In this document: piece after piece, positions 1,225 through 55,860 of the stretch
How the letters are laid out: the number at the start of each line of letters is the position of its first letter
How positions within the stretch are numbered: position 1 is the first letter of the stretch
Assembly: GCA_002964805.2 (NCBI GenBank)
Contig: PUDQ02000125.1
Coordinates: 62,001 to 126,000 of the forward strand
Direction of reading: 5' to 3'
Origin: Trametes villosa
Lineage: Eukaryota; Basidiomycota; Agaricomycetes; Polyporales; Polyporaceae
DNA: 64,000 bases
The notes under the pieces: model-generated
Seen by the model: the letters and a program-made list of their open reading frames with translations, nothing else
What the model was told of the DNA's origin: nothing
The model's database searches: none
Position numbers and translations under genes: made by a program

Positions 1225-2864
1225 AGTACTGCTTCTCGCCGCCCTTGCCGTCCGCGCAGCACGCTGCCTTGGGCGCACTTCCGGGGAGCGCTCGTTGCAG
1301 GAACGGGGAAAAGGACGTCTCGAACCTCTCCTCCGGCGCGGGTGGGCCTGAAGATGGCGAATGCGAGGAGGTAGAGCTGAGCGCAGGGTGCGGAGGTGTC
1401 GGGGAGTGTAAACGGTCGGGGGCGGGCTGAGTTTGAAGAGCAAAGCATTTACGAGGTTGGTGCTACGGCCCTAGGTTCGCAACCGGATGCCTTGGATCTT
1501 GACGCATGGGCGTGTTCCTCTACATGGCGAGCGCGACGAGAGTTAGAAACAGCGCAGACGAGCCGTTCGAAAAGACCAGCAGGTACGCATATGTTTCCGC
1601 AAGGCAGGGGATAGTCCACACCCCGCCAATTCCAGGTTATGTTGCGGTAGTGTGAGAGACACGCAGCACCACAGAAACAACGACCCGCCATGCTCGCGCA
1701 CAGTCGCCTCTCTACGGAAAGCTATGAACGCTGGGATATACATACGTGAGCAAAGAATGGCCGGTATACTCACGCAAAACACGCACTCAATCGCATATAT
1801 CCTCCTCCCGTTTGATCGCCATTGTGCCCCCTGTGCGGCACTGCGGAAACCGATACCGCAGTGACTTGAGTTGGCGCGGCACGTCTTCGAGCGGTTTCCG
1901 GCATTACAATCAGATAGCTGAGTGGGACGACAAACAACATCAGCGTCCATCCAACGGTCCGTCCCCACCGGCTGTAGGTGGATGCGCGACTTGGGTAGTG
2001 CTCAGCATGTTTGATGTACTCTCCATTCTGGCGTTAGCTAAAGCATGTCACCCGCAGAAGCAGTATTTAACGCGGCGACGTACAGCTGGTACCGCCGTGT
2101 GACCTGTTGCAGGTGGTCTTGGCTGCGGAGAGCGACGACGGTCGCGCTGTTGCTCGCGCGGACTCCGATCTCGCGTCCTGCTTCCTGGGGGGCTGCACTC
2201 CGGCGAGCTTTAGGCGTCGAATTCTAGGATCTCTACTCCTTTCGCTTGAGCTGCGCGAGGTCGAGGTCGGGGTATCTGTTGGCAGATCGTACCTACAACC
2301 GCGAAGCACGGTGAATGAGCCCGGACCCTAAACGAGGAGAGAGGCGAATACTAACAACGTTGACGCGGTCTGAGTCGTGCCATAGTGGGAGGGCTTTATG
2401 CCGCACATGAGATGTGCGCCTGCGCGATGCGTTAAGCATTCTTGACGTTGCGGGTACGAACCCACTGGGTGGGCGAGCAACGAGAACGCGAGAGATGCGA
2501 GGCAGCAAGCTGGGGATGTATCTGGGAATGATTAGGGGATGCATTGTGGTGAGAGCAAAAAGTGGCTTACTGAGTTCTTTACTACTCCGAGGCAATCAAT
2601 GAAGGCGTACAGGGGCCAAACTGACGAGGACTTACGCAGTCCCGATGTCGTCTGTGTTGCGCAGCTTAAGCCAGCGGTGAGCGGGGGTCGTTGTACGGCT
2701 CTGCGCGACTAACTCTGTCGCAGAGACCTTGCCAAAAGTAGCAGAGGTAGTATCATATCTAAAGGGGCGTTCAAAATGCACGGCAAGCTGTCCGAGGGTG
2801 CGAAGGGCAGCCTGAGACGAGACAGAACAGGCGAGAGAGGCGTGTCAGTCAAGCGCCGGAGTCT

Positions 2865-2965
2865 GGCCAGAGGTGGCCGTGACGTCATCGACAGAAGCGC
2901 TGGCAAGCGACGCGTCCCCGCGCTCTTCCTCTCTCCTTCCCCTTCTCTCTCACTGAAGTACTCGC
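2865..2965. promoter_or_regulatory. CRE-like TGACGTCA plus pyrimidine tract, R1 copy
   Basis: The perfect palindrome TGACGTCA at 2880-2887 is followed by a long CT-rich tract, a common fungal core-promoter layout. All four R copies keep it (2880, 15404, 28519, 33618), each time just upstream of the plus-strand remnant P2. TGACGTCA is the known target of ATF/CREB-type bZIP factors. Confidence 0.45.
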
Positions 2966-3039
2966 TCGCTTGTAACGGACGCGCTTTTCTCCTCTGTGGC
3001 AGTTGCCCTAGTCTGTTATGACCTCACCTGGGCTGCTAC

Positions 3040-5610
3040 TCTCCCCTGCTCCTAGTACAGCCTACCCTCGGTATCTCTGGCTTCGCCCGACGCCTCGGAG
3101 ACCTCAACCCTCTGGAACACTGGTGGGCCATATGACGAGCCGTATGTCGCGTCCGGCGAGGCCCAAAGCACAATATGCTGTCGTTACTGCCCTTCTCTAG
3201 TACCGCGTACGTCTGCCTCTCGCGTTAATGCCCTCCGCTAGTACCGTGTACGTCTGCCTCTCGGTCGCTCGTGTGCGGTGACGTGCTGCGACGTGCTCGC
3301 AGTCTGTCGGGCGCTCCATCCGTCCTTGCTTGTAATTGCGAACAACGCGAGCTGACCTCCATCGCTTTACAGCGCCTGGACACGCCGTTGATACTCGTGA
3401 ACCGAGTGCACCAGGTGCTCGTTCCGTCCGTTTCCAGTGTCGACACCCCCGCTGCGCCCGTGGTATCCGTCCTTACTTCCACACGGACAGTCTCACGCAA
3501 ATCCTTCTCCCTGGGTGATATTGCTTCTCCTCTCCCACTGGGATCCTCGTATCCTGTCTGAGAACCTCTCGGAGAACACGCGTAGCCGACTTCGCCACCC
3601 GCCCTGCCTCTGACATCCCTGCCGCTTGACGACGCTATACATCTCGTGTATGGTGCGCTACTTTGTCCACATATCGCCCGTGCTCTAGCTAACTACGCGG
3701 TCTTCGCTGTCACCATCAAACCAGACCCACCGATCGCAGGACTTACTACCTCGCTCGCCCCCGTCCCTTGTACGCCCCCGCCAGGCACGATCACGACGGC
3801 GACCTCCGCTGGGTCTCTCGCTTACAATGTAACGGACGCGCACGATGCTCCGATCGACTCGGCATACCCTGCGGCTTCACGCGCTTCTAGCGTACTCTTC
3901 AGCTGCCATTCGAGTACGACCTTGGTCGCCCAACTCAAGCATGACCTCCGGATCGCGCGTGGACGTGCTGGAGCTACAGCTCGCCGTACTACGGGCGTCC
4001 TACCTTCTTTCACCCTCTCTAAGGGCACCGCGATTTCCGAAGGTCGCGGCTTTTCCGCTGAGGACCTATACGACGATCACGCCGCGCAAAGGGACTCGCC
4101 GTATTCTAGTCGTCCCGCACGCCGTTACGCCCTCCGGGACCGTAGCTCACACCCGCGCGCAAATCGTTATATGTGGCCAGCGCCGAGCTGTGTAGGAGCG
4201 GTCGCGGCACAAGACCTGGCACACCGTCCACGGAGTTGGATCGCACGTGCCGTTCCCTCTATGACTCGTTCGGCAAGCCTTCCACGCCCGTTCCGCATCG
4301 CGCTCTCAAGGCGCTCGCGAGGTCGCCCCACGTTCTGTCTTCTCGTCACTTTCGGACCGCGACGTCGATGCGTATAGCGCCGTTCGCCGTTATCGACCGT
4401 GCGCCGACTGCACCTCTCAGCGCATTCGCACTCCACATGCAGCGCGAACTCGACACAAAGCCCTGCCCTAGCTCTTGTCTCAAAGGTTTGTCTATCCGGA
4501 ACTGTCATTAATACTCGGGGCTATGGCATCTCACTGTGGGCTATGTACTCTCGCGCGGTTGCAATTGGTATACAACAGGACTCCCAGGTCATGACGGAGA
4601 ACGCCGTCGCTCAGTAAGTACCTGTTCGCCTGCAGGTGATGTGGAGAGCCGCACCTCACATTGACCTATCGCTCGGCAGGCTTGTCCTCAGCATACACTG
4701 GCTCGCGCCGTCCTCTCCGGGTTTACATCCGTACGGGCGCATGGGAACTCTCGCTGCCGATAATGTACGACGGCCCGAGCGCATCTCAGCCACGGTCGGA
4801 ACGGGTCGCGCGCTCGACGTGCTCAACAGCTGCTCAACAGCTGCACGACGCTAACGAGTACGTATCTCACTTCACAACTCCTCTCTCACTGGCTTTGCTG
4901 TCTTCCCAGGGCCTGCAGGACGCTTTCTCACGCGAGCAAACGCTGGCGGAACTCCCTAGCCCCCGCTTTCCGGCACCTGGAAGAGCGCCGGATGCGTGCT
5001 AGTCAGGGCGCGTGCATAAAATGCAGCGCTGTCTCTTGCAGCACGTCTCGCACTCCCCCGCCGGAACATTCGACGTGTTGCATTGCAGGGAGCGTGCACG
5101 GTGGACGTTTCTTCACTGAAACGCCGAAACACGCCCAACTACGGGTGCCCGATGGCATTGAGTGTTCATAGGCATGTCTCGTCCCCCGTGTCGCGGTCCA
5201 CGAGGCCGACGGCGCACGCTGTTCATAAAGCTGATGCTGCACGTTACCAGGTGCGCGTTGGGATCGCTCGCGCAAACGCGTATGCCCACTGTAATCCGCT
5301 ACCGAAGCGCAAGCCTGTTCTTGTTCCCGTAAAGGCGCGGCAGATGCCCCGCCTTTTGAATCTCTCCGTACGGTCGACGCTGCGCTCGCTCGCGCGGGCG
5401 TAACGCTGGCCGTACACGTTGTTCTTCATGCCTACGTCGGCGGATTCCTCCGGGGGAACGGCACGCACACCGACTGCCCGCGGCTGCTCGTTTGGAGCGA
5501 TCTCGTCGACATGTACGTCCTCCTTCCCCGCTCTCGTGGGAGGTGTTTGTTCTGCCTCTTATGAACACTTCTGGGTGAGAAGAGGCTTTCCTGGAACTTG
5601 CTGGTCATAG
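3040..5610 (+). pseudogene. P2: degenerate plus-strand multi-exon gene, R1 copy
   Basis: Coding-like blocks shared with R2, R3 and R4 lie downstream of the CRE-like site. One is an ASETSTLWNTGGPYDEP block near 3090-3140, whose start codon (ATG in R3) is CTG here. Others are an LYDDHAAQRDSPYSS block near 4068-4110, a block after a CGGCAG acceptor at about 4680, an intron with GTACGTATC donor and TTCCCAG acceptor at about 4858-4910, and a GGFLRGNGTRT-like block near 5430-5470. Frames switch and stops interrupt, so no single protein can be read. No known family was recognised. It may be more than one gene; the grouping rests on constant order in all R copies. Confidence 0.35.
3185..3266. repeat. 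Two 41-base tandem copies
   Basis: Positions 3185-3225 and 3226-3266 are near-identical (each contains CTAGTACCGYGTACGTCTGC). R4 has the sequence once, so this is a local duplication private to R1. Confidence 0.8.
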
Positions 5611-7635
5611 TTTTGTTGACGGGCGGTCTACGGAAGTTGTCCCGGTGAATATATGCAGATCGTCCCTGCGCGCTACGGATAATAGATATACGTTTTGTGG
5701 ATTGCACAATGCTGTCTAGCCCCGCGTGGCTGAAGTCAGGCCCTTCCGCGTCGCCCATCGAATATCGTAACCCGTGTGTCTTGTCTACGTCGCGATGGTA
5801 CCAACAACGGTGCGCTCGAGCGCGCTCAGGCTTAGAGGTCGACATTGGCATCGACATGTAAGTCTGAAGGCCATATGCGACCTTCGTCTCGATACAACAC
5901 CTCGCGCGCCACAACGCTAGCCTTGCGCCGCACGTACACCCGAACCCCTCGCACTGTGTGAGTTATCTGAGTCCACGCGCATAGCTCTTGTCGAATGTGG
6001 CCCGACGACAAAGTATACACGATGTCGACCCACCAGCGACAAACCTGTGGACCCATGTTGAGCCATCATTCCCTGCATGCGCTATCTCGCGGCTCTCTCC
6101 AAGACAAGTACAATGACCGTATCGTAGCGAGAGCGATGCGCGCGACCTGTGATGCGTGCTTGAGGACGCGGGGACGATGGGTAGCGTGCTTGGTGAGCGG
6201 CGTCATCGCAAGACCGTGCGACGAGGCTGCGACGTCGATGTACCGCCGAGGTGAGCTTGAGCCGTCGTGCCGGGGGTAGAAAACTGGATCTGTACGATGC
6301 GCCTCCGTGACAGCGAAGGTACGACACACGGAGCCAGTATTCAGGTTCGACGACGAGAATGTGGCACCTGCAAAGCGTCTGCACGGGGTAATCGACCCGG
6401 GCTTGCGTCTGAGCGTGTTCGCGGGCTGTCTAGCTCTGTTGTAGGACCCTACACGAGCAACCCACAGGTTTGTGCCGAGGCATGTCTACCATGGCCAGGT
6501 ATGCAGGTTAGAGAGGTGTCTTCTGAGCGAGAGGCAAGTACAGTTGACGGGAGTGAGAGAACTACTTGGGCATGCGCAGGAACCTGTGTCGTAGAACGCA
6601 GCGCATGTATGACAGATACGTAGAAACTATGAGTATCGAACCAGAGGATAGGAAGGTTGGGACAGCACGCAAACGAGTTGGCGTATGTTTAGTGTCCGGT
6701 AAGTACAGTGCGTTTTCACAGGAACCGGGACGAGGAGATGAGAGGGAAGCGGGAGCAGGGGGCAGATCAGAGAGCACGATACTTGGAGGGGCGTCGATAC
6801 ATAGAGTGCGCGACAAAGGCGAGGTCGGCTGGGTATTTTTCGAGAGGGGGAAGAACGGGGATGGCGGTACGTGGTGCATGCCCTGCAGACTGACCGCATA
6901 CTGATGCAACTCGCCTGTCTCTCGGAACGAGGGCCCGTGATGAACTGATCCGGGCCAGTATCGCGGCCTTCCGCTTTCCTCACGCACATCTCCCTAGACG
7001 AGTCACCTTTACTCCAAGAGGAGATGTAGAACCATCCATGCTCATGGATATGTACTACGTCACGAACGTACGCGTGCAGACGACATGAGGTGCTGCCACC
7101 CCGAGCCCGCCCGGTGCGACGCGCTGTCACGCATCATCGATTAGGGGCTACAGTGTTCGCGTCTGCCTATCAAAGCGAGACACAATTGCGGGGCGGCGTG
7201 GGCCGAGTTAGGGAGATGCGTCGAGAATGTGTTAGTACATGCGCGGCTACCACCAGAAGAGCGATCACGGTGACTTACTGAGGGCGGTGTGGGAATTGCG
7301 AGGGGGAAGCAGACGACGGACACGTTATGGAATAGAGACGTCCGCGCTCGTGGTGAGAGGTCCCAAAAGCAGGTGGCACTCGCTCGAGTAGATCTCCCGG
7401 AGATGTAAAAGCACTCGCGGAGGGTTCTGTTCGTTTACGAGGACCGGCGTCCAGGTAGAATAGCATCTTCAGGTGGGGCAGCGCTCTCTCAGGCCTCCGG
7501 AAGAGTAACCACAATCAGGGGAGCCTGAAGAGTGGTTTCCTCGGGTAAGAGTCGTGCGCTCGGGGAGACTGTCGCCCCCGCATCTTGGACGCTCTCCAGG
7601 GGTTCCTGCAAAGGAACGCTGAGCAGAGCAACTGA

Positions 7636-9853
7636 TTAGTCAGACATATACACACGAAGCAGGGAGCCGACAGGTACTGACCCCTCTGCAGGATTGTCTT
7701 TGAGGCGGATAAGCCTCTCCTTTACCCTGCGCGCAAAGTCGGGTATGTCTTCTCCCCAGTAGCTGTCATCGTAGTCGTAGGGCCTAGTGAGTGTGTTGGC
7801 CATGCGAAGGACGTTCAGGAATAGTTCGCCATCAATGCACTGTAATATGCTGTCCGATACGCGCTCCGCGAGTGCCTTCATGATGGAGCGGACTGCCCAG
7901 GCGTCGACTGCCGTCGGAATATGCTGCATTTGTTTGCCTGTGTATTTCTCCAACAGTGCGCCAGTTAGCTTTGCGAAGACATCACGCGTGTATGCGCGAA
8001 GTGCACTGAAGTTGTCGGAGGCGAGGGCGACACGGCAGACGCAGTCGGCATACTCTAGGAAGTGGTTGATACACCGAAGGCAGGCGGTTAGGGCTGTCCT
8101 TGCGTCGCCGGCGACTTTCGTCTCCTCAATTTGGATAAGTTCGTGATATGCTCTGGTCGCCGCTTTTACGCGGGGGAGTGAGCACTTACAGTATCTGTGC
8201 GCAAGTACAACCTTACCTTGCAGGAAGGCGATGGCGGCGCCGCTTCCGGCCCCTGGCCCGCCCCTGAGGGAAATAACCCTCTCCTTCAGTGTGCGCGCCA
8301 AGCCCGGTATGAGTCTTCCACAGAGGTCGCCACCGTAGTCGTAGGGCTTTTCAAGTGTGTCGGCCAGGTGCAGGACGTCAGGTAAGAGCTCGTCATCCAT
8401 GCACTGTAACACCTTGTTCGATGCGCGCTCGGCGAGTGCATGTATGACATCCCATAGTGCCTGAGCGTTGATTGCCGTCCGGATGTGCTTCACCTGCTCA
8501 CCCGTGAACGTTTCCAGTAGAACGCGGGTTAGAAGAGCGAGAACATCTCTAGTGCAGCTTCGAACGGTACTGATGTCGGAGGAGGAGAGGTGCACATCCA
8601 AAGCGCCATTGGCATACTCCAGGAAGCGGTCGATACACTTGAAGCGAGCGGCAAGGATTTCCTTTGCATCACTGGCAAATCTGGGCTCTTCGATGCCAGC
8701 GAGGTGGAGTTCATGATGTGTCCTGGCCACAGCTTGCGAATTCTTAGTAAGTACATGCAGTATCCACGGGGGAGTATGAACTCACCCTGTAAGAAGGTGA
8801 TGGCCACGCTGCTCCCAGCCTGGGACCCACCCTTGACGCGGATTATCTTCATCCTTAGCTTACCCGCACTTTCGGGTATTCTACATCCCCAAGGGTCGTT
8901 GTCATCCTCGTAAAACTTTGCGAGTGTGTCGGTCATACGAAACACGTTGGGTAAGAGGTCATCGTCGATGCATTGCAGTACGTCGTCCGTTACGCCCCAA
9001 GCGAGATTCTCAATGACGCCCAAGAGTGCCGTGGTGTTGACGGCCGTGTGATCATGCTTCACCTGTTCTCCTGTAAGCAGGTCAAGCACAAGATCGGCCA
9101 GATACGCGAGGGCATCCCGCGTGTACAGGCGAAACGTCTTCATGTCGTCAGAGGGGAGGGGTGCAGGAAAGATGGCGTTCACGTATCGCAGGAAGCAGAA
9201 GATATTCTCGAAGGGAGTTGTCATGTCTGCGTTTGAATTATGTGCGACTCTGGACCGCTTGACGTGGTTGAGACCGTGATATGCCCTTCGTGCAGCTTGC
9301 ATGCAATTCGGTCAGTACATTTGGTGCCTGTGCGTGAGTAACACCGCACCTTGCAAGAGGGTGATAGATGCGCCGCGCCCTGCACCATGCTCGCTCTTGA
9401 TACGAATGATCTCGCTCCTCAGCAGGCCTGCATACGTTCCGTGGGAAGGTGTGTCGCAGTTGTGGAAGGGTTTTTCGAGCGCGTCGGTGATAAACAAGAG
9501 GTCCAAGGCCAGCTCGTCGTCAATGCACCGCAACACATCGTGAGATACCTCTCGAGAAAGAGTCCACAGGAGGTCTTTGAGAACTTGGATGTCGACTGTC
9601 GTACTAATGTGCTGCACCTCCTCGCCTGTGAATTGCCTTAGAAGAATGCCACTCAGATGCGCGAGGACATCCCGCGTGCATGCGCGAACAGTCCTGAGGC
9701 CGTGAGGAGGCCGGTGAGGCTTCAGGGCTTTGTCGGCGCATTGCAGGTACTCTTGTATACGGCTGAAGTGAGCAGTGAGGGCTGCCTTCGCATCGTTAGT
9801 GCTGTCTCCGGGCTCCTCGGTGAGGCGGGCTGCGTGATATGCCCCGGCTATGG
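7636..9853 (-). repeat. Four tandem exon-modules of gene 1
   Basis: Exons 9853-9350 (504 bases), 9295-8786 (510), 8732-8217 (516) and 8162-7636 (527 with stop) each encode one module. Every module starts A-x-x-R/G-x-Y/H-H with a conserved YTRDVLA-type block, FTGEQVxH, LxCIDDELLxDVL and LKERVIRLK-type end. Introns between them are 53-54 bases, all phase 1, with AAG|C acceptors. Confidence 0.9.
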
Positions 9854-11883
9854 CTTACGCATAGTTCTGTCAATACGTGCATTATCTACGAGCGAGTATG
9901 ATCTCACCTAGCAAGAACACATTTTCCATACCGCTTCCTGTAGTATCCGCGTAGTCAAGGAGGGACCCCCTCTCGCTCGCGAGCCGGACAGGATCCAGCG
10001 AACGCAGCCGATTCTCCTTAGATCCGAGCTGATTCGTGATCGCATTGATCGCTGTCATTGCCCATTCTGTGTCAGCCGCCTTCATGCGAGATGACCAGTG
10101 CCCCTTTTCGAAGTAGAGAACCAAGGCGGCAGACTCGTCTTCGGACAGAAGTGCGTAGTCCGCGTCGAGGACGCTCAAAATGACCAGCAGCCACAGGAGC
10201 TGCTGTTCATTGTCTCCACCGAATGGTCCGCCGTTTGAGTCCGCCGTTTGACCGAAATGCTCCTGCGTGGACTTGCGAAGTTGACGGAAGAACACTATAA
10301 GGCGCTCATGGTCGACGTCCATGAGGCAAATGGTCGCCGCATCGAGGGCGTCTGGATGGAGAGTTGAGCTGTACGCTTTAACGAGAACTTGCGTGTCCAA
10401 ATCTTTGGTGGAATCGCGGATTTTCGCCTGTTCTTGGCCCTGCCACGATTGTCCACGGTTTCTCCAGGTCTGAACCTCTGGAATGTGATCCAGTGATGAT
10501 ATAAGAGATGTGAAGACAAGTTGCAAGGTACGGAAGATGGAAAGAAAGGAGTGGGATGTGGTGGTTATTGACGAGTCACTAACTGAGGATTGGGGCTCCG
10601 AGGGTGCCTCTGTAAGTGCGAGCACATGAACGAAGGTCGCGCAGAGCCAAGTCCAGCGGGATAGGAGTGTATTCGGTGCACCCTTGATAGTGTTGATGAA
10701 GGCGCAGGTACAAGAAGATATGGCAACACCTATCCGGTACAGGAGGTACTTTGGCTGCCATAGTGAGTACAGCAGTCGTGCTTGGGGGGTAAGATACGAG
10801 CAGTCTGTCTTGAAGAGCGGCAGGAGGGTGCTGACAACAATGAAGAGTCCCAAGGAGCCCACTAGTGCGGACGAGAGTGCGGCGACGGTGTTATGTAGGT
10901 TCCACAGGAGGACGAGGATGCCCGAGAGGAAACACGCCAGGGCGAGCTGCAGAAGCACTGGTATGATGGTGACGATGTTCTCTACGCCCCACCTCTCAAG
11001 ATTATTGAGTCGATGCTGACGTAGTTGGGCAACGTGGCGGGATGTTCCTGAGACGCCGCTTGTATACTCGTTGGTCCATTGACGGACAACGATGCCAATT
11101 GTGGCAGCGGCGAGGCTGAGAATGAGCCCCGAAAACAGGAGGCCGTTGAGCCATACGGCCCAGCGCGGAACAGCGACGGGTATGGTATGATTGGCGGCAA
11201 CAGCGGTACCCGGCTGCTGGGTGGAGTTGATGAATGGGGGGTATATGGAGAAGCTGGCAAGCTGATAGGATATCTGTTGAAGAATCGCGATAGAGGGATC
11301 GGGCGAGGCGGGACTCAGGAGGATGTATGTCTGTACGTTGAACGTCGTGAGGACAGCTGAGAACAGCCCCGCCTGAACGTTTTTGATTAGCATCCTCACC
11401 ACGGGCAGCAGCGCGCAGGGCACGCACGAAGACGAGGTAGCTATCGATCTCTTCCTTCCACCGCTTGATCATCTCATCGCTATACATCTGCACCATCGCC
11501 GCTGCATCGGACCAGGCTTTCGCTTTCTCTTCTTGAGTGTGCACTTTTTTACGTCTTTTGTACACATCCTGCAGTGAACCATCCGAGTGTTATCCAGGAG
11601 CCAACGATGGACAGGCGGGACATACCCGTATTGTGTCCATTTTTGGAATCTCTGGTCGCGCAGATGCCTCTGGCTCTCTTGCGTTTTCCTTCTCGTTCTT
11701 CTAAAGGTCAGAGCTGTGAGCTATAGGCACGGATCATCTCAGAAAATCCGCACTGACGCCAATAACGTTCTCTTCAACAACCGCCTCCGAATCTTTCGCT
11801 ATCCGGGGCTGGTCTCTGGAATAGTCCGGGTGGGACAGGTGGCCCACCAAATGTTCGCCTGCTTCTTGGGACGTGCGAGACAT
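7636..11883 (-). CDS. DUF6535 membrane protein with four C-terminal modules (gene 1)
   Basis: Exons, minus strand: 11883-11752, 11700-11626, 11568-11428, 11372-9908, 9853-9350, 9295-8786, 8732-8217, 8162-7636; 1289 residues. Exon 3 gives an amphipathic segment (KAWSDAAAMVQMYSDEMIKRW) and joins exon 4 as VF|AGLFSAVLTT, the DUF6535 signature. Predicted membrane segments lie at about 117-135, 187-213, 249-275 and 277-303, with a conserved QWTNEY after the second. A soluble helical region (to 604) contains KAADTEWAM. Four modules follow: 605-772, 773-942, 943-1114 and 1115-1289. The start is the Met shared with genes 2 and 4 (MSxTS). Oddity: the first donor reads AGT|GCGGAT where gene 4 has AGG|GTGAGT, so exon 1 splicing may be weak. 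DUF6535 has no known biochemical role; a membrane-anchored location is inferred. Confidence 0.88.
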
Positions 11884-12559: not shown

Positions 12560-12983
12560 TACCGTTGTGCCTAGCGCGGCGAGCCCGCGATCGGTTCACC
12601 ACGCTCAGGCGAGGCGCGCCCTGAAGCTTTGAAGGATTTTGGCCGTAGCTGCGACGCGACATAGAGCCCAACTGGAGCGCAGAGGCATCGTGGTAAAACT
12701 CACGGGAGGAGGACAAAAAGTCCACGGCATACTCAGCGAAGGAACAAGAACAGCATCTCGGACGATCATGGCAGACGAGAACTGGACGCATCAAAAGAGG
12801 GAGGTACAAAGGCGGCTGTGTTTGCTGGCGAATCCGAGGTGGGAAATCTTCAGTCCGGAGAGAACTCGTGGGTGCTCCCCAATAATGCGGCGCGAACCGA
12901 GCAGCGACGGTCCAAGTAACGAGCTGCAGCGCACTTTGATGAGTATGCAGACCGTCAGATAGAGGTGCACAAATATGGCGTAC

Positions 12984-13401
12984 CATCGAGACTCCTCCCA
13001 AGGGCCTCCACGTCGTCAGGGCAACGGGCACCAGTGTTTCTGAGTGTAGGCATCCGATGATGCTTTGCTGCGCAGGACATCCTCGCTCATACTGCTCTTG
13101 CGGCTGAGAGGAGGGGAATATCGGGTGCGCACCGGCCGGATTGAGCTACTGCATCAGCAGTTCTTTCGCATCTGCGAGTGACAGGACCAGTGTCAGCGAT
13201 ACTTGATCGAAAGGAAGAGGTCATGTACTCACAGTCGAGCTTGTATGAGCACGCCTATTATAAAAGTATCAGTCCCCCGATGACATGGAGCGAGGAGAAA
13301 GCCACTCATTGGGCTCCCCTGACGTTCACTACCTCCACCGCGGGATTAACCGCCACCTCACGAGTCTCGCCAGCCTAAACGCTCGCAGAGGTCGCAGACA
13401 T
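12984..13401 (-). pseudogene. P1 remnant, R2 copy, with in-frame stop
   Basis: The ATG at 13401 opens MSATSASV and is followed at once by TAG, where R1 reads on. Later exon-like blocks are still alignable, ending in RCPDDVEALGRSLDG before a GTACGCC donor at 12983. A point stop in an otherwise conserved exon set marks this copy as a pseudogene. Confidence 0.5.
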
Positions 13402-13700
13402 TCTTCGTCCACGTTGTATACTGCATTTGCTGGGCTCATCCAGGGATAAGACAATAACATTTGGTCGTATCCACAGCTTGCTCACCGGAAACAACGAGTC
13501 AGTATACGCGCGCGTGGGGCGGTACGGGAATTTCAGGCTGCTATACGGCAGGACTGGCTCGTCAGACAACACGGCGCTGGGTCGGTCAATCGGAGAGGCC
13601 GCCAGATATATAGCACGAACGACTTGGAGCTCAGAATAGTGGACGCGGGGAGAGAACAGCCAACGCCGACGACGACGCTCGTCGAGCGACTCGCACAGGC

Positions 13701-13776
13701 CACGCGACGCGGGAGAAGCGCGGTCACGTGGGCGTGTTCTCAGGCTCCTATAGGCCCGCGGCCCCGCGCGCTCGCG
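13701..13776. promoter_or_regulatory. Conserved E-box/GC-rich block, R2 copy
   Basis: CACGTG at 13725-13730 with the CTCAGGCTCCTATAGG and GC-rich segments in the same order and spacing as at 1151-1224 and 31899-31973. Confidence 0.4.
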
Positions 13777-13984
13777 CCTGCTTCTCGCCGCCCTCGCCGT
13801 CCGCGCAGCACACCGCCGTGGGTCCACCTCCACGGAGCGTTCTTCGTAGCAGCGGGGTGATGCGCGGTAGCGCTGTCCTCTCGACGCTCTCCTCTGGGGC
13901 GGGCAGGCCTCAAGATGGCGAATCCGAGGACGTTGAGTCGAGCTCCGAGTTGGGCAGGGTGCGGGAGTGTCGGGGAGTATCAAC

Positions 13985-14250
13985 GGTGGGAAGCTGGCCG
14001 CGATTGAAGAGCAGAGTATTGACGAGGCTGGTGCTACGGCGCCAGGCCCGGGGGCTCTGTCCTGACGCACGGGCGTTTTCCTTTACGATAAGGGCGAGTG
14101 CGACGAGAATTAGACACGTTCGAACAGACGAGCACGTACGCACCTGTTTCCGAGAGACGAGCGATAGTCCGCAGCTCGCTATCCGCAGGTACCGCGTCGC
14201 GGTGGTGTAAACGACACGCAGCACCACAGAAACAACGACCGTCCATGCAC
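13985..14250 (-). pseudogene. Possible fungal membrane-protein remnant (DUF6533/6534-like)
   Basis: The minus-strand frame gives a hydrophobic run (CLILVALALIV), a polar basic stretch, and SLVNTLLFNRG. This order resembles the membrane segment, basic loop and LLxRDG turn typical of Agaricomycete DUF6533/DUF6534 proteins. R1 (about 1400-1560) and R4 (about 32200-32340) have the same DNA with frame changes. The match is from memory of the family pattern and is short, so it is weak. Confidence 0.2.
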
Positions 14251-15389
14251 GTGCACAGTCACCCTTCAAAAGAAAGCTACGAACGCTGCGATATACATGC
14301 GTGAGCAGGAAATGGCCGGTATACTCGCGCGGAGCACGTACTCGCCTGCACATATCCTCCTCCCATGTTATCGGTATCGCACATCTGTGCGGCACTGGGG
14401 AAACCGATACCGCAATGCCATGAGTGGGCACACCATGTTTTCGATCGATTTCCCGCAGTACAATCGGATGACTGAGGTCCTGGAACGACGAGCGACATCA
14501 GTGGACATTCAAGGGTTCGTCCTCGCTGTGGGTGAGTGTATGCGCGACTTGGGCGGTGCTCAGCAAGGTCAATTTCCTCGTTATTCCGATTCTAACTGAG
14601 GAGTATCACTGGTAGGAGCAGTAGCTAATGCGGTAACGTACAGCTGATCTAGCAGTTTGAGCTGTTGCAGGCGATCTTGAAAGCCGACCGTGACGACGGT
14701 CGCGCTGTTGCGCGCGCGATCTCCAATCTCGCATTCTGGTTCCGTACAAGCTACACTCCGGATATCTTGGGGACTAGAAGACCATTGGACACTGCTGTTT
14801 GAGCTGGAGCCGCGCGTGATCGAGGTCGGGGACACCTGTTGCCAGACCTTTCCTGCAACCGTGAAGCACGGTTGAATGAGCGCTGGCCGTGAACGAAGAG
14901 AGAGGCCGATACTCACCACGTTTATGCGGCCTGAGCCGCACGGTATTGAGAGGGTTTCATGCCGCCCATGCGCGACGCGTCAAGCATTCTTGATGACACG
15001 GGTGGGAAGCGACTGGGTGGGCGAGCAACGAGAACGCGAGAGATGCGACACAACAGGCTGGGATGTACCTGGAAATGCTCAGGGGGTGCATTGTGGTTAG
15101 CACAGGAAAGGACTCACCGAGGTCCCTTCCTCACTCCCCGGCAATCGATTGAAGCACACAGCACCTACATCGACGAGGACTCAAGCAGTCCTGACGTGGT
15201 CTGCGGCAGAGCGGCCAGTGGTAGGCGAAGGTCCTTGTGGGATTTGTGCGACGTACTCTGTCGCCGCAACCTTGCCAAAAGCAGCGCACGTAGTTGGCAA
15301 TGTGGGGAATGCGTTCATAACCCCCGCAAGCAGTCCGAGGGGAGTGAAGGGCGAGAGGCGAGAGAGGCGTGTCAGTCAGGCGCCGCGGT

Positions 15390-15490
15390 CTGGCCAGGGG
15401 CCGTGACGTCATCGACAGAAGCGCCGGCGAGCGACGCGTCCCCGCGCTCTCTCCTTCCTCTTCTCTCTCACTCACTCACTCCCTCGCTCA
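15390..15490. promoter_or_regulatory. CRE-like TGACGTCA plus pyrimidine tract, R2 copy
   Basis: TGACGTCA at 15404-15411, then CGACAGAAGCGCCGGCGAG and a CT-rich tract to about 15490, as in the other R copies. Confidence 0.45.
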
Positions 15491-15539
15491 TTGAGGACGC
15501 GCTTTTCTCCTCTCTGGCAGTCGCTCTCATTTTCTCTGA

Positions 15540-21770: not shown

Positions 21771-22934
21771 CGCCTTGGACGCGAGCAGTGGTGGAAACGA
21801 GGGCGAGTGAAACTGTCGTGTATGGCAAATACATAGAGATTTTAAGTATCGAAGCAGAGGGTAGCAAAATCAGGACAACACAAGAACGAGCCAGCGTACG
21901 TATGGTGTACGGTAGATACAGCGAGATCGCAAGGGGACCAGGACGGGAAGGAAAGGGGAACAGGAGCAAGAAACATAGTAAGTACGGAACATCAGGAACA
22001 GAAGGGATAGATAGAGAGCGCGATAGAGGCAATTCAGGGCGTGTATCTTTCAAGAAGGGGAAGAGGCAGAGCAGAAGCGAGGGGAGAGAGGACGTACGTA
22101 CGTATCATACAACACCAGAACGAATCACGGAGTCCAGTACAGCGCATTCGAGGGTCGAGAAGAGAGCGAGACATAAAGGCCATATAACAGTGAAGGAGGA
22201 ATGCAGCGCACGACGCGAGCCTCTGCCACGCCGAGCGCGCCCGGCGAGACGTACAGTGCGCCGTCGGGAGGGAGGCGACGGCCTTTGCGTCCGCCCATGA
22301 CATCGATACGAGCGCAGGGCGGCACAGACACATCGTAGGGAAGGTGTTGAGGACGCGTCGCGAGGTGCGCGGCTGCCACCGGAAGAGCGATCGCGGCGGT
22401 TTACTGAGCGCAGTGTGAGAAGGACGAGTGGGAAGCAGACCACGGACGCGTCATGGGATCGAGAGACGTCCGCGCGCGAGGTAGAGAGTGCCGCAAGCAG
22501 GGGACACTTGCTGAAGTAGGGTGCCCGGAGATGCGAGGGCACTGGGAACCGTTGGATGATACTGACATAGCGAGAGGGGAAGAGAGATTGGGCAAGCATG
22601 GACAAAGCGCGAGGGATGAGGGAGAATCGCTGCTGGATTGAAGGGGAGAGCGCGATAGGAAGACTGTGGAGGTGCGCCTTAGCGTCATGTTCGACGCGTG
22701 GAAGCGCATTCCCGGAGGGCGGAGAGTACTGGTCGCCTACGAGGAGCGGTGTCCGGCAGGGAGAGCATCTTCAGTAGGGGCAGCGTTCTCCCCAGTCGCT
22801 GAGGGAGCGACCGCGCTCGAGGGAGAGGGAAGAGGGGATTCATGGGGTGAGAGTGGTCCGCTCGGGAGGACTCTCGCTTCCGCACTTGAGACGCTCGTTT
22901 GGGGTTCCTTTAAAGGGGATCTGAGCGGAAGAGA

Positions 22935-24025
22935 TCATTTATCAGACGTGTTCATACGAATCGGGCTGCTAGAAAGTACTGACGCCTCTCCGGGGTCGCC
23001 CTTGAGTCCGGGGTCGCCCTTGAGGCGGATAACCCTCTCCTTCAGTTTGCGGGCAAAACCCGGTATTTCCTCGCCCCAGTCGTTGTCGTCGTAGTCGTAG
23101 GGAGTAGCAAGCGTGTCGGCCAAGCGCAGAACGTCAGGAAGCAGCTCGCCATTAATGCACAGCAGCACGTTGTCCGACACGCGCTCAGCGAGCTCTCTCA
23201 TGGTGTCCCGGAGTGCGTAGGCGTCGACCGTCGTCTGAATGTTCTGCACCTGTTCGCCAGTGAATCTCTCCAAGATAGTGTGCGTGAGCTGTGCGAGGGC
23301 ATCCCGAGTGTACACGCGAAGCGTCTGGAGGTTGTCGGAGGGGAGGGGCAAATCCAAGGTGGCGTCGGCATAGGCTAGGAAGCGATTGACCAACGTGCTG
23401 TACATTCTCAAGCCTGCCTTGGGAGCGTCGGCGACTGTAGGCTCCTCGGTGACACGAATGTCGTGATATGCCTCGGTTGCGGCTTGTACGCGACTCGGTC
23501 AATACATGTGGTATCTGTGAATGAGTGCAAGCCCACCTTGGAAGACGATGATTGTCACACTGGGACTGGCCCCGGGCCCGCAGGAGAGACGGATTACCCT
23601 CTCCTTCAGTTTGCGAGCATAATTGTCCCCGTAGTCGTAGGCAGTAGCAAACGTGTTGGCCATGCGCAGAACGTCTCGGAGCAGCTCGCCATCGATGCAC
23701 TGTAACACCCTGTCCGATACTCTCCCGGCGGCGAGTGCCAGGGTGATGTCCCAGAGTGCCTCGGTGTCGACCGTCGTCTGAATGTGCTGCACCCGCTTGC
23801 CGGTGAAGTGTTCCAGTAGAGTGCGAACAAGCTGAGCGAGGACATCCCGCGTATACGCGCGAACGGTCTCGCGGTCTCCGTCTAGTAGGGGTGCCTTCAA
23901 GGCGTCGTCGGCACATCGCAGATACGCGTCGATACACTCGAGTTGAGTGCTGAGGGCTGCCTTGACATGGTCGGCAAACGCGGACACCTTAGCGGGGCGG
24001 ACTTGGCGGTATTCCCAGCGTACAG
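22935..24025 (-). repeat. Two exon-modules of gene 2
   Basis: Exons 24025-23537 and 23482-22935, both entered in phase 1; the first also ends in phase 1. The first resembles the first module of genes 1 and 4 (AVRW/AVRG start, LEC.DAYL.CA). The second resembles the last module (DLQTLRVYTRDALAQLTH; ends RVIRLKGDPG). Gene 1's two inner modules have no counterpart here. Confidence 0.85.
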
Positions 24026-25963
24026 CTTGCAGACGGAGTGGCAGTCAGTATATGCGGTGTCTGTGAGCAATATTACACTCACCCTGCACGAAGGCCTTGA
24101 CCTTCTTGTCGTCGGAGATGCCCGCACTGTTAAGGAGGTTTCTCCTCTCCTGCGCAATCCGTTCTTTACTCAGGAAGGTCAGCGAAAGGTCCTCGGACAT
24201 GATCGCATTCATCGCCGACACCGCCCATTCTGTATCGGCCGCCTTCATGCTCGACGACCAGGATCCGCATTTGAAGAAGGTTACCAAGGCCGCTTTCTCT
24301 CTTTCTGACAGCGTAGAAGGATTGTACCAGACGAGCGTGAAGCAGATGCCAATCTGAAGCCATAGCAGCTGCTGTTGATTCCCCCATCCCAGTGGCCCGT
24401 CCTCCGAGTCTGCTGCTGCCCCAAAGTGCTCGTGTGCGGACTTGTGCAACCGACTGAAGTAGGCGATAACGTCCCGGTATTCGAAGTCCATGAGGCAGAC
24501 GGTCGCCGCGGAGAGGGCGTCCGGGTGCAAAGTTGCACTGTAAGCCTCCAGTAGGATTTGTGTGTCCAACTCCGTCGAGCGGGGTTCTATGGCTGCCCGT
24601 TCGCGTCCCTGCCATGTCTGCTTGCGGTCCTTCCAGGCTTCCGGTGGGGATGCGACATGTACAAGAGTCCGCCATACCCGTGAAAGCTGCGAAGATGTCA
24701 GATCCCAGAGTACCCGGAAGTATCGAATGGGAGAAAAGAGAACCCGAATGGGGAAAAAAAGCACATAGACAACGTTGAAGACGACTCTGGTATGGCCGTA
24801 AAACACGGCAGTGTGGATATAGTAAGCCAAGTACTTCGGTTCCAAACAATAGATGGCGCGTGCTTGGGGCGTGAGGAAGGCACAGCTCGCATGGAACAGC
24901 GGAAGGAGGGTGGTGATGATAACGAAGACGCCTAGGAATCCCACGAGAACGGAGGAGATGGCGGCAACGGCGTTGTGCAGGTTCCACAGGAGGAGAAGGA
25001 GGCCAGCCAGGAAAAGAGCAAGGGCGAGCTGGAGCAGGACTGGGATTATCCCGACGATATCCTCGACATGCCACTTCTTGAGGTTGTCTAACCGATGCTG
25101 GCGTACACGAGCGGCAGGGAGAGACTTTCCTGAAATGCCGCTCAGATACTCGTTGGTCCATTGCTTGGCCATGATGCCGATCGTAGCGGCGGCGAGGCTG
25201 AGGATGAGTCCCGAGAACCATAGACCGTTGAGCCAGATGGCCCAGCGCGGGATCGGGGAGGATAGGGGAGGATTGGCGAAAATTCCGAGAGTCGGCTGCT
25301 GGGTAGAGTTGACGAAGGGCGGGTGAATGGAGAAGCTGGCGAGCTGGGAGGAGATCTGCTGTAGGATCGCGACAGAGGGATCGGGTGAGGCGGGGCTGAG
25401 GAGGACGTATGTCTGGACATTGAACGTTGTGAGGATCGCAGAGAATAGACCCGCCTTTCCCGTCAGGGTCAGTCATATCTAGCCTGGCAGAAGAGTACAG
25501 GACACGCACGAATACGAGGTAGGTGTCGATCTCTTCCTTCCATCGCTTGATCATGTCGTCGCTGTATGTCTGCACCATCCCCGCAGCGTCTGACCAGGCT
25601 TTCGCTTTCTCCTCCTGAGTGTACACCTTGCCACTCCTCCCATAAACGTCCTGCCATTTCAGGGTGAGCTAGCGACCGACTGCACATCTGCGGGACATAC
25701 GTATATACCCTCTACCTTTGGAATATCTGGGCGCGCAAACATTTTCTTCTCTCCCGGTTTCTCCTTCCCTTTCTTCAGGAGAACAACGTCTTCAGCTGGC
25801 GGCGCAAAGTCAAGGAGAAGAGACCCACATCTTGACCGATAACGCTCTCTTCACCAGACGTCCCGCCTCCTGTTGTCGGGCGCTGATCTACAGAGGGGCC
25901 GGGATCGGGGTGAGGCGGCTCGTCCGTCACCTGTTGACTTGGTTCGTGCGACGTGCGGGACAT
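22935..25963 (-). CDS. DUF6535 membrane protein with two C-terminal modules (gene 2)
   Basis: Exons, minus strand: 25963-25829, 25772-25701, 25650-25510, 25454-24083, 24025-23537, 23482-22935; 918 residues. The plan equals gene 1: hydrophilic N-terminus (MSRTSHEPSQQ), helical segment ending TYLVF, then AGLFSA, four membrane segments in 117-305 with KQWTNEYLSG after the second, and a soluble region with KAADTEWAVSAMNA to residue 573. Modules are 574-736 and 737-918. The first module is shortened near its centre (163 residues). The last carries a small internal duplication (GDPG twice) before its end. Introns are 50-57 bases; exons 2, 4, 5 and 6 use AAG acceptors. No stops or frameshifts were seen, so this is probably the best preserved short form. 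Function unknown. Confidence 0.88.
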
Positions 25964-31640: not shown

Positions 31641-31898
31641 CCGCTCACTGCATCTGCGGCACTGGATCATGGTGGATCTTCCGCCGTGTTCACCGTCCTA
31701 CTCACCGGTGAGTATACGCGCGCGTTCGGCGGCACGGGAATTTGAGGCTGCTATACGGCAGGACTGGCTCGTCAGCCAACACGGCCCTGAGTCGGTCGGT
31801 CGGCGAGGCCGCCAGATAGTTGGAACAGACGACTTGTGGCTCAGATAGGGGATGTAGGGAGAGAACAACCAACGACGACGACGGCGCTCGCGCGGGCC

Positions 31899-39100: not shown

Positions 39101-41334
39101 GCATATCATCACGGTCAGCGTGCGACACGCTGTCGAACAGCGCCGCGAGTAGAAGGGTAAGTTTCTTACGCCGCTTTCATCGAGCCTCCATCATATCTAG
39201 CCTTCTAGTTAGCTCAACAACAACTGGGAGACCTCAAGTTGCCATCTACCCCTTCAGCGGAGCCATCTTCGGCCCAACACACTTCGACATCCTGAGGGAA
39301 CACCACCGCGATGAGCCGAATCGCCCTCGCTGGAAGAGTTCACGCGCACGCGCGGAGTCGCGTCGCAGGCGTGAAACGCGTACCATGCGCCGCGCCTAGG
39401 CAAGATACTCCGCACGGTACGTCAAGGGTCCCGCAAGTAAAATCGCGCGTTTGCTGACCTCCTCCGCAGTCATATATTGTCGCCGGACGCCAACTCTGGT
39501 TTAATATCAAGAGTCCGAAATGTCGCTCCGTGAGATGTGCGACGTATCTCAGCCCGGCGCGGCGGTGCAGGTGCGATGCTCCCTATCGTGCTCGTACATC
39601 TGTCTTACTGGTGTTCATATCCTCGCGCGTCATCTTGCAGGAGGGCGTCTCGGGGCACAGACACTCCGGCGCACGCGCCCTCCTGTGCATCAAGGCTGCA
39701 GATGCGCGACGCCCTGGGCTCGTTGTCGGTCTTAGATTGCCTGTGCCGCGCGACCTGCAAGTTCTCCGTGTAGGTACATGGAGCATCAGCGCTGGGACCA
39801 CGCTGCGGACGCGAGTGGTCGGGCGGACGAGACGAGGGCCCGGGAACCTGTGTCGTACAGCGCAAAGCGCGTATCGCAAATACATAGAGATTCTGAATAT
39901 CGAAGCAGGGGGTAGCGAGATCAGGACAATACGAGAACGAGCCGGCGTACGTATCGTGACCGGTGAATACAGTGAGATCGTAAGGGGACCAGGACGGAAA
40001 GGAAAGGGGAACAGGAGCAAGAAACATCGTAGGTACGGAACATCAAGAAAAGGATTGGTACATAGAGAGCGCGACGGAGGCAAGCCGAGGCGTGTATCTT
40101 TCAAGAAGGGTGAGAGGCAGGGCAGAAGCGAGGGGAGAGAGGACGTACGTACGTATCATACAACACCAGAACGAATCACGGAGTCCAGTACAGCGCATTC
40201 GAGGATCGGGAAGAGAGCAAGTCAAAAGGCCATATAACAGTGAAGGAGGAATGCCGCACACGACGCGAGCCTCTGCCACGCCGAGCGCGCCCGGCGAGAC
40301 GTGCAGTGCGCCGTCGGGAGGGAGGCAACGGTCTTCGCGTCCGCCTGTGGCATGGACACGAGCGCGGGGCGGCACAGACGCGGCGTGGGGAAGGTGTTGA
40401 GGACGCGTCGAGAGGTGCGCGGCTGCCACCGGAAGAGCGATCGCGGCGGTTTACTGAGCGTGGTGTGAGAGTGATGAGTGGGAAGCAGACGACGGACGCG
40501 TCCTGGGATTGAGAGACGTCCGTTCGCGGGGTAGGGAGTGCCGAAGACAGGGAACACTCGCTGAAGTAGAGGGCCTGGAGATGCGAGGGCGCTGGGAGCC
40601 GTCGGGTGGTACTGACATAGCGGGAGAGGAAGAGAATTGGGCGAGCACGGGGACGCGTTGGGCTTGGTGAGAGATGGAAAGCCGGATAGCGAGGCTACAG
40701 AGCTGCGCCTCAGTGTCATGTTTGAAGCGCGGCAGCGCACTCCCGAAGAGCGGATGTTACTGCTCGCCTACGAGGAGCGGGCTCAGGTGGGACAGCATCT
40801 TCAGTTGGAGCAGTGTTGTCCGACGTCGTCGGGGAAGCGGCCACGCCCTACTGGAAAGAGGGTTCCTGGGGTGGGAGTGGTCCGCTTGGGGAGACTGTCA
40901 TCCCCGCGACTTGGACGCTCACTTGGGGTTCCTGAGAAGGGGTTCTGAGTGGGACAAACCAATCTTCAGAAATGTGCACACGAACTAGACAGCAGGAAGG
41001 AACTGGCTCCTGTCCGGGATCGCCCTTCAGACGGATAACCCTCTCCTTCAGTTTGCGGGAAGAACCCGCAATGTATTTTCCCCAGGGGTTGCTGTCGTAG
41101 TCGTAGAAAATAGCGAGTGTATCGGCCATGCGAAGGACGTCCGGGACCAGCTCGCTATCAATGTACCGTAGCACGTTGTCCGATACGCTCTCGGCGAGTT
41201 CCCTCACTGTTTGCCAGAGTGCCTTCGCGTCGACCGTTGTCCGGGTGTGCTGCACCTGTTCGCCGGTGAATCTCTCCAGCATAGTGTGAGTGAGCTGCGC
41301 GAGGGCATCCCGAGTGTACGCGCGAAGCGTCTGG

Positions 41335-46793: not shown

Positions 46794-47973
46794 TCTGGAG
46801 GTCGTCGGAGGGGAGGGGCACATCCAAGGCGACGTCGGCATAGGCTAGGAAGCGTCCGACACACTCGAAGTGCATTTTCAAGCCTGCCTTCGGATCGTCG
46901 GCGACCGTAGGCTCCTCGATGCGATGAAGATCGTGATATGCCCCGGTTGCGGCTTGTACGCGACTCGGTCAATACATGTGGTAACTGTGAATGAGTGCAA
47001 GCCCACCTTGGTAGACGCTGATCGCCACCCTGGGACTAGCCCCAGGCCCGCAGAAGAGACGCATTACCCTCTTCAACAGCTCGCGGGCAGAAGCCGGGAT
47101 CATCATTCCATAGAGGTCGTTGTCCAAGTAATAGGGCTTTGCAAGTGTGTCGGCCATGCGAAGGATGTCCGGGACGAGCTCGTCGTCGATACACTGCAGC
47201 ACGTCGTCAGATATGTGGTCAGCGAGTGTCTTCATGACGCCCCAGAGTGCCGCGGCGTCGACCACCGTCTGAACGTGTTGCACCCGTTCGCCGGTAAAGT
47301 GTTCCAGTAGAGTGCGAGCAAGCTGAGCGAGGACATCCCCCGTGTACGCGCGAACGGTCTCCAGGTCGCCGTCTTGGAGGGTTGCCTTCAAGGGTTTTTC
47401 GGCACATTGCAGATACGCGTTGATACACTCGAGGTGAGTGGTGACGGTTGCCTTGACATTGTCGGCAGGCGCGGGCTTCTCGGTGAGACGGACTTCGCGG
47501 TATGACCCGCGTACAGCTTGCCGACGGTGCAGTCAGTATATGCCATGTTTGTGAGCGGGTACACACTCACCGAGCAAGAAGGCCTTGACCTTGCTGTCGT
47601 CGGAGATGCCCACAGGGTTAAGGAGGTATCTTCTCTCTCTCGTGATCTGTGTTTGACTCAGGAAGGTCGGCGAAGGGTCCTCGGACGCGAGCCTATCCGT
47701 GAATGCATTCATCGCTGACACCGCCCATTCTGTATCCGCCGCCTTCATCCTGGACGACCAGAGGCCCCACTCGAAGTAGGTTTCTAAGGCCGCCTGATCT
47801 GTCTCTGACATAACACGAACATTGACCGGATTGGGTGCGCATAAACCGATCTGAAGCCACAGCAGTTGTTGTTGATTCCCCCGTCCGAAGGGCCCGCCTG
47901 CTGAGCTCGCTGCTGCACCAAAGTGCTCGTGTGCGGACTGGTGCAACTGACGAAAGTAGTTGATAACGTCCCC

Positions 47974-54352: not shown

Positions 54353-55860
54353 TCCCCGGCATGGAAGTCCATGAGGCAGACAGTTGCCGCTGAGAGAGCG
54401 TCTGGGTGCAGAGTCACACTGTAAGCTTCGACCAAGATTTGCGTGTCCAACTTTGTCGTAATTTCGGAGTCGCCAATGGCCGCCCGTTCCCGTCCCTGCC
54501 AGGTCTGCTTGCGGTCCCTCCAGGTGTTCGGTGGGAACGCGATGTGTACGAAGGTTTGCCGTACGAGTTTGGGCAACGAGGAAATGAACGTCCCGGCTTG
54601 TAAGACGGCCTCAATGGTATTTAAGAGAACTTCAGCCTTGCGATCCGAAAAGAGCTCGACAATGTACGTGATGGCTCTGCGACCTGCGGAGGACACGGTT
54701 GCGTGGATGAAGTAAGCCCAGTACTTTGGGTCACAGAGATGGAGGGTGCGAGCTTGGGGCGTGAGGTAGGCGCAGCTCGTGTTGAACAGCGGGAGGACGG
54801 TGGTGACGACAACGAAGACACCTAGGAACCCCACGAGAACAGAGGAGATGGCGGCAACCGTGTTGTGAAGGTTCCACAAGAGGAGGAGAAGTCCAGCAAG
54901 AAAGAGTGCGAGGGCGAGCTGCAGCAGCACCGGGATGATCCCAACGATATCCTCAACATGCCACTTCTTGAGGTTCTTTAACCGGTGCTGGCGGAGGCGA
55001 GCGGTGGGGCGAGAATTTCCTGCAACGCCGCTCAAGTACTCGTTCGTCCATTGCTTGGCCATGATGCCGATGGTAGCAGCGGCCAGGCTGAGTATGAGTC
55101 CCGAGAACCAGAGACCGTTGAGCCAGATGGCCCAGCGCGGGATCGGGGAGGATTGGTTTGGATTGGCAAAGATCCCGGGAGCTGGCTGCTCGGTAGAGTT
55201 GACGAAGGGCGGGTGAATGGAGAAGCTAGCGAGCTGGGAGGATATCTGCTGCAGAATCGCAACCGAGGGATCCGGTGAGGCGGGACTGAGGAGGACGTAG
55301 GTCTGGACGTTGAACGTCGTGAGGACCGCAGAGAATAGACCCGCCTTATCCGCCATGATCAGTCATATCTAGCCTGTTAGGAGCGCGCAGGACACGCACG
55401 AATACGAGGTAGGTGTCGATCTCTTCCTTCCATCGCTTGATCATCTCATCACTGTATGTCTGCACCATCCCCGCAGCCTCTGACCAGGCCTTCGCTTTTT
55501 CCTCTTCAGTGTACACCTCGTCTCGCCTATTCAAAACGTCCTAGAGCATACCATTGCAGGGTTAGCTAGGACTCAACTCCCGACAGGCAGGACATACATA
55601 TCTATCTTCCACGTTTGGAATTTCTGGCCGCGCAGGCGATTTATTCCCTACCGCCTTTTCCTTCTCCTTCTAAAGAAAAATGACGAATTCTGCTGCTGGT
55701 TCATAGGCAAGGGGAAGAAACTCACCCTGTTGCCAACAACGCTCTCTTCCACAGGCTTTCCGTCTTTTGACGTCGGGCGCTGGTCTACAGAGGGGCGGCT
55801 GCCCGAGTGAGACGGCTCGTCCGCGACCTGTTCGCTTGGACCGTGCGACGTGCTAGACAT

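Follow-up and report, generated by a model that had tools for sequence, protein, structure and literature searches.

In a 64,000-nt window of Trametes villosa DNA (C122:62001-126000 of the 46.7 Mb assembly), gene 1, on the reverse strand (11883..7489), encodes a DUF6535 protein that ends in a tandem array of four copies of a helical module, each carried by an exon of its own, and paralogs in the same genome carry between one and four such modules. We are nearly certain that this exon anatomy and the variation in module number are real, as far as sequence can establish them. The likeliest reading of the protein is a solenoid arm, tethered by a membrane anchor and binding a partner protein, with a sequence and length that recombination varies, one means by which organisms can alter a binding surface.

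Exon structure of gene 1

Pfam returned one match for gene 1, to DUF6535 (PF20153; residues 86-272, E = 4.1e-51, 173.8 bits against a cut-off of 23.9), which bears out the family assignment made in an earlier note on this DNA; nothing else passed the cut-off, and the module itself is without a Pfam family. Exons 1-3 (11758-11883, 11626-11700 and 11428-11568, with phase-0 introns between them and a putative start codon) and exon 4 (9908..11372, exit phase 1) would supply the beginning of the protein, its DUF6535 domain and a helical middle region, exon 4 holding the bulk of the domain and that region. They are followed by module exons 1 (9350..9853, 504 nt), 2 (8786..9295, 510 nt) and 3 (8217..8732, 516 nt), symmetric exons entered and left in phase 1, with exactly the lengths and phases previously proposed. 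The introns between the modules are 53-54 nt long with GT..AG borders, and the spliced frame is open. The modules are copies of one unit, as had been claimed: module 1 as a query of its own genome finds the other three at E values of 9.8e-19, 1.1e-30 and 1.9e-20, and pairwise protein identity among the four is 34-47%. A hidden module in the middle region was not supported by sequence (best E 0.097). All splice sites of gene 1 and its relatives were placed from sequence and conservation.

The fourth module exon had been described as another phase 1-1 exon, of 527 bases and ending at a TAA at 7636. The symmetric description stands for modules 1-3 and falls for the fourth, which very probably ends at 7682, at a conserved phase-2 donor. 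In the revised structure, module 4 (7682..8162) is an asymmetric, phase 1-to-2 exon of 481 nt, followed by a 63-nt phase-2 intron (7619..7681), in which the TAA at 7636 probably lies, and by a Pro/Ser-rich tail exon (7489..7618) closed by a TGA; the predicted protein is 1315 amino acids long. When the 3' ends of terminal modules from 19 genes or fragments are aligned, the donor falls at one column and reads GTCAGT in most, and beyond it lie a branch-like TCTAAC or TCTGAC and an acceptor, mostly CTCAG. A pattern scan of 18 terminal modules, less L025, where the match lay off the shared column, found the donor GT[C/T/G]AG[T/C] in 16 of the remaining 17 (the exception is L018), in phase 2 in 14 genes and in phase 1 in L017 and L019; the gene 3 fragment has lost it. 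Read in the phase-2 frame, the tail is alike between genes, with the stop at the same position in six (L011, L012, L014, L020, L021 and gene 2). Since the phase-2 donor is conserved and the tails are similar, we read the terminal module as a phase 1-to-2 exon that precedes a Pro/Ser-rich tail exon.

The intron after the terminal module (seen across L009-L024 and in the window) sits where inner modules have a linker of about 12 residues, so terminal and inner exons use different donors.

Module number across the genome

Searched against the genome, three module queries matched 31, 31 and 33 stretches, and DUF6535 matched 58, some of them belonging to one gene. We scanned 17 fetched stretches and the window with a module profile, finding one module in ten loci (L014, L015, L017-L020 and L022-L025), two in L009, L010, L011, L016, L021, gene 2 and gene 4. 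In both L013 and the window, the second module of gene 4 is cut off. L012 has three modules and gene 1 has four, and gene 3 contributes a fragment. The proposed variability in copy number is thus borne out between paralogs of one genome, and the module, lacking a Pfam family and ranging in number from 1 to 4, does not behave as a known domain of constant number. Single-module genes have the asymmetric end exon, and it is the symmetric exons that vary in number. Phase 1 precedes every module examined, and no stop interrupts the translation of 30 module stretches, drawn from 19 genes, within borders that we set ourselves and with the L016 and L019 rows trimmed to exclude an edge stop.

A later scan of nine DUF6535 stretches added L026 (two matches) and L027, where the modules are divergent, and L030 and L033, where the match is weak (E about 0.02). 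Both L030 and L032 have a phase-1 junction before the C-terminal exon, with a weak module-profile match in the former (E 0.02) and none listed in the latter. The module may therefore be an ordinary C-terminal domain of many DUF6535 proteins in this genome that has been multiplied in a subset. Protein searches with the C-terminal part of gene 2 and with the 30-module alignment each found nothing at threshold among roughly 8000 candidates, a result that says little about spread. Another DUF6535 gene, in L028 (1080-4574, reverse strand; G000 C14), has an open reading frame of 1165 residues with no module match in the scan and a different C-terminal extension.

Gain, loss and exchange of modules

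We used a tree of the DUF6535 exon from 27 genes to follow changes in module number. Ten distant rows were labelled 'single' by us: L026 (two genes), L027, L029-L034 and L039. Module matches in these rows have E values of 5e-17, 1e-5 and 1e-6 in L026 and L027, about 0.02 in L030 and L033, and 1-10 in L031 and L034, with none listed for L029 and L032; L039 covers the 5' portion of a gene that has its module in L025. Gene 1, with four modules, is sister to L014, with one (100/100), and L012, with three, groups with L018, with one (91/88). The 'several modules' state requires five changes on the gene tree, and at least four of these are forced by well-supported branches. The suggestion that the inner modules were either gained by gene 1 or lost elsewhere is to be read against these pairs: the sister of gene 1 has a single module, and the third module of L012 was probably acquired by exchange with a gene-2-like gene.

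The probable L012 exchange can be seen as a tract of about 0.9 kb, from 151 nt inside module 2 to about 22 nt beyond module 3, where L012 matches both gene 2 and L011 at 84% identity, compared with 52-53% outside it; none of 2000 block permutations reached this difference. Windows upstream of the tract are 37-72% identical to gene 2. The counterparts in gene 2, gene 4 and L011 share 91-93% identity with the second inter-module intron of L012, and that in L010 shares 82%, compared with 65% for L012's own first. Two control comparisons gave a weaker tract (gene 2 with L010, 82% vs 70%, 5/2000) and no tract (gene 2 with L011, 414/2000). From this pattern we think it very likely that L012 is the product of exchange with a gene-2-like neighbour, and we read one of its breakpoints as lying within a module exon.

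A tree of the modules themselves was built from 24 of 32 rows. Left out were rows whose borders ran into stops (the last modules of L009 and L016, and L017, L019 and L020), L025, and the interrupted pieces of genes 3 and 4. Six multi-module genes have last modules that group with the module of L014 (89/95), the single modules of L015, L018, L022, L023 and L024 fall outside this group, the first module of gene 1 is not joined with that of gene 2, and most other branches are unresolved. Alignment columns 1-40 separate first from last modules (9/9 and 8/8); columns 40-140 recognise only 4/9 first modules. The earlier idea that first and last modules pair across genes therefore survives for the first 40 columns, and over the whole module the tree leaves gene 1 module 1 unplaced. 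The middle modules (modules 2 and 3 of gene 1, module 2 of L012) begin like terminal modules. Because of this start pattern and the L012 mosaic, the data suggest that a terminal module exchanging out of register with a first module would add a chimeric middle module; we infer this as the general step.

Some single modules show a first-like start and a terminal-like end (permutation p of 0.003 in L015, 0.03 in L014 and 0.006 in L023), and others show no such switch (L018, 0.36; L024, 0.34; L020, 0.89). We do not claim that single modules are fusions of first and last ones, since L023 shows the switch too and an ancestral single state predicts the pattern as well. The single module of L020 (4763-5242, forward strand) begins like a terminal module, a possible footprint of whole-exon deletion through homologous introns.

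Introns and the origin of the symmetric cassette

Another way to view the array is through its introns, which we sorted into those before the first module (D, n = 18), between modules (I, n = 12) and after the terminal module (T, n = 17); six further introns, taken from genes 1 and 2, served as controls. Mean between-gene alignment scores were 10.0 for I-D, 21.4 for I-I, 11.4 for D-D and 11.1 for T-T, and only 2.5 for I-T, 2.9 for I-control and 2.9 for D-T. The first 25 intron bases alone scored 4.5 for I-D and -3.5 for I-T. The same resemblance is found at the preceding exon ends, where the final 12 bases of I agree with D at 62% and with T at 25%, and where I-D agreement over the final 18 bases (0.50, shuffled mean 0.34) was reached by 0/500 codon shuffles, declining to 0.33 over the final 36. 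As the introns between modules and the exon ends before them are D-like and not T-like, an inner module would end with a DUF6535-type exon end, donor and intron; the founding duplication therefore probably broke within exons and borrowed a phase-1 donor. On these alignments we regard an exonic founding breakpoint as likely.

The basic state would then be one terminal module, in a phase 1-to-2 exon followed by a Pro/Ser-rich tail. A founding tandem duplication, with one breakpoint slightly upstream of the 3' end of the DUF6535 exon and the other close to where the module exon ends, would give the first copy the phase-1 donor and intron of the DUF6535 exon, so that an asymmetric last exon became a symmetric 1-1 cassette. 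Later misaligned recombination, within modules and between neighbouring paralogs, would have added, removed and swapped modules to give one to four per gene. Both the direction and the order of these events are inferred. How a last exon turns into a symmetric cassette is a general question in exon shuffling, and donor borrowing would explain how this could happen to an exon that is not simply copyable in frame. The papers open to search contained no description of an exonic breakpoint that borrows an upstream donor.

Fold, selection and function

Module 3 of gene 1 is predicted to form an all-helical, ARM/HEAT-like piece (predicted local distance difference test score, pLDDT, of 81.5), in agreement with the helical module first described. 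Foldseek gave no match to this model at E <= 0.001, and ARM/HEAT families were absent from the Pfam matches of gene 1 and two gene 2 modules at E up to 10. A search of PDB sequences with the module profile gave six rows, the best two being designed helical filaments (E 0.0091 and 0.077) and the rest having E values of 0.31-1. Judging from the model, we think it probable that the arm is an ARM/HEAT-like solenoid with units of about 160-170 residues. An AlphaFold2 model of the DUF6535 exon, made from 3 sequences, had a pLDDT of 40.5 and was not used.

The four membrane segments once assigned to the anchor are retained in part: a simple hydropathy scan of gene 1 found three strong segments in the DUF6535 region and a fourth that passes only in the middle region, with a slightly different set in gene 2. 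The ratio of nonsynonymous to synonymous divergence (dN/dS) is 0.14 in the membrane part and 0.83 (0.62-1.10) in first modules, with 1.14 (0.82-1.58) in first-module non-core columns and 0.46 and 0.43 in module core columns. For the last modules of gene 1 and L014, dN is 0.41 and dS 1.26. The arm would be a binding surface for proteins, diversifying beside a membrane anchor that remains constrained. A diversifying recognition surface, as first suggested, is favoured by a module dN/dS 4-6 times that of the membrane part, and disfavoured by the lack of a class significantly above 1 and by the age of the modules in gene 1. From the sequence comparisons we hold a binding or recognition role for the arm tentatively.

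Alternative explanations

A simpler origin for the array would be plain intron-mediated duplication, in which recombination inside introns duplicated entire module exons and no breakpoint fell in an exon. The likeness of the introns before and between modules (I-D 10.0, I-I 21.4) agrees with it, the route is open once symmetric exons exist, and the terminal-like start of the single L020 module is what a whole-exon deletion would leave. As an account of the founding event, however, crossing-over between D and T introns predicts a phase 1-to-2 exon followed by an intron with a T-like 5' end, whereas the introns seen between modules resemble D from their first base onwards (4.5 vs -3.5) and the exon end is D-like too; we consider this explanation improbable. 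Several points do weigh against the view that we prefer, of a binding arm built by exonic duplication and exchange. Convergence at the module junction could raise the exon part of the donor signal, the intron part less; position-dependent selection is an alternative for the terminal-like starts of middle modules; no class has a dN/dS significantly above 1; the modules within gene 1 are old; and a scaffold role for the arm is not much less likely.

If the arm were a structural spacer or scaffold, module number would set its length and the high dN/dS would reflect weak constraint on the solenoid surface. The constrained core columns, the absence of a class significantly above 1 and the 34-47% identity of gene 1's modules would all be expected of such a spacer. 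The steep gradient in dN/dS from 0.14 to 0.83 and the value of 1.14 in first-module non-core columns speak against it, as do exchange between genes and clustering, which are typical of diversified families though not proof of one, and we find the scaffold explanation rather unlikely. More remote is a decaying, largely non-functional family in repeat-rich DNA. One window gene is interrupted by two long terminal repeat (LTR) elements (LTRs 100% and 99.8% identical), and first-module dN/dS is near 1, as decay would have it; yet the 30 stop-free stretches of 19 genes (subject to our choice of borders and the two trimmed edges), the retention of splice sites and phase, and the excess of dS over dN between the last modules of gene 1 and L014 make this very improbable.

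Relation to known systems

We lean towards describing these genes as encoding a solenoid arm on a membrane anchor, diversified as exons were gained, lost and exchanged, in the manner of brown-algal ROCO genes and the leucine-rich repeat (LRR) arrays of Tetrahymena. In brown algae (PMC11378527), each phase-2 exon of the ROCO array carries one LRR, and these exons are reported to be shuffled, alternatively spliced and under positive selection; in the ROCO (LRR) and nucleotide-binding tetratricopeptide repeat (NB-TPR) candidate immune receptors solenoid units lie one per symmetric exon, in tandem and in the same phase, shuffled in number and order, and evolve quickly beside a conserved core, all of which resembles the present array. 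Theirs, however, are 72-bp phase-2 LRR exons attached to a ROC-COR GTPase, whereas here modules of about 510 bp in phase 1 are helical and belong to a DUF6535 membrane protein with an asymmetric end exon, and here dN/dS is not significantly above 1 (PMC11378527). In Tetrahymena (PMC6564038), arrays of 90-bp phase-2 LRR exons are likewise symmetric, tandem and of one intron phase, are attributed to unequal crossing-over, and are concentrated in pericentromeric and subtelomeric regions; they number tens of thousands of short exons, compared with about 30 larger phase-1 helical modules behind DUF6535. What the present array shares with both is one unit per exon, a single phase throughout (phase 1, with the terminal exon leaving in phase 2), unit numbers that differ between genes (here 1-4), and exchange of units (here in L012). 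Neither LRR nor TPR was among the Pfam matches at E up to 10. Zambounis et al. 2012 reportedly also deals with these brown-algal receptors.

The repeats of fungal NOD-like receptors (NLRs) are reportedly near-identical, unlike gene 1's modules at 34-47%, and the Pfam matches of gene 1 include no nucleotide-binding domain, neither the NACHT nor the NB-ARC of fungal NLRs. A review of fungal immunity (PMC10197012) mentions exon shuffling in brown algae and combinatorial rearrangement of fungal NLR sensor repeats; fungal NLRs, like the present genes, belong to paralog families, and their C-terminal repeats are believed to be shuffled both inside a gene and from one gene to another. Identity to ARM/HEAT solenoids such as importins is 8-10%. 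Among the DUF6535 (PF20153) genes seen here, only a subset has arrays. A literature text search for DUF6535 or PF20153 found one paper, with a table entry, and searches on tandem exon duplication, symmetric exons, exon shuffling, intron phase and lineage-specific families gave no such array among the matches listed, subscription papers being mostly outside reach. The principle of exon-shuffled solenoid arrays is already known, and we regard the symmetric-cassette array behind DUF6535 as a new instance. It gives the DUF6535 family a testable shape (anchor, helical arm, tail) and a mechanism of change, and offers a candidate for fungal nonself recognition outside NLRs.

A bolder version, which we think unlikely, is a fungal recognition family diversified in the germline, in which misaligned recombination passes the module exons of membrane-anchored solenoid receptors between adjacent paralogs, and donor borrowing at an exonic breakpoint supplies the symmetric cassettes. 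If true, it would be a convergent fungal counterpart of the brown-algal exon-shuffled receptors.

Neighbouring genes and genomic setting

Gene 2 (22737..25963, reverse strand) is a DUF6535 gene with two modules, at 23537-24025 (phase 1-1) and 22984-23482 (phase 1 to 2), followed by an intron at 22921-22983 and a tail exon at 22737-22920. Further along the same strand, gene 5 (54357..55341) comprises the 5' portion of a DUF6535 exon that an LTR element interrupts, gene 4 (46794..47971) contains what is left of the middle region together with module 1 (47008-47517) and the first part of module 2 (as far as 46794), and gene 3 (40983..41334) is the remainder of that second module, beyond a second LTR element. 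Genes 3, 4 and 5 (40983-55341) look like one two-module DUF6535 gene interrupted by the two elements. The LTR pairs are 100% identical (41335-41750 and 46378-46793) and 99.8% identical (47972-48554 and 53775-54356), so the insertions are recent. We read both elements as Ty1/copia-like, on the basis of the long open frames between their LTRs.

Module genes form clusters on C122 and on contig C3, there at about 100-195 kb. C3 starts with (CCCTAA)n telomere repeats (L038, G000 C3:1-10000), so its cluster (C3:100-195 kb) is subtelomeric; C122 has a telomere at neither end. The clustering on C122 and near the C3 telomere fits a rapidly changing family. Intergenic DNA in the window is repeated along with the genes, at 74-82% identity, among 363-5484, 12914-16313 and 31703-36103, and in the pairs 18364-20895 with 36470-38899 and 21817-23328 with 39868-41334; the paralogs thus seem to have spread by tandem duplication of units many kilobases long.
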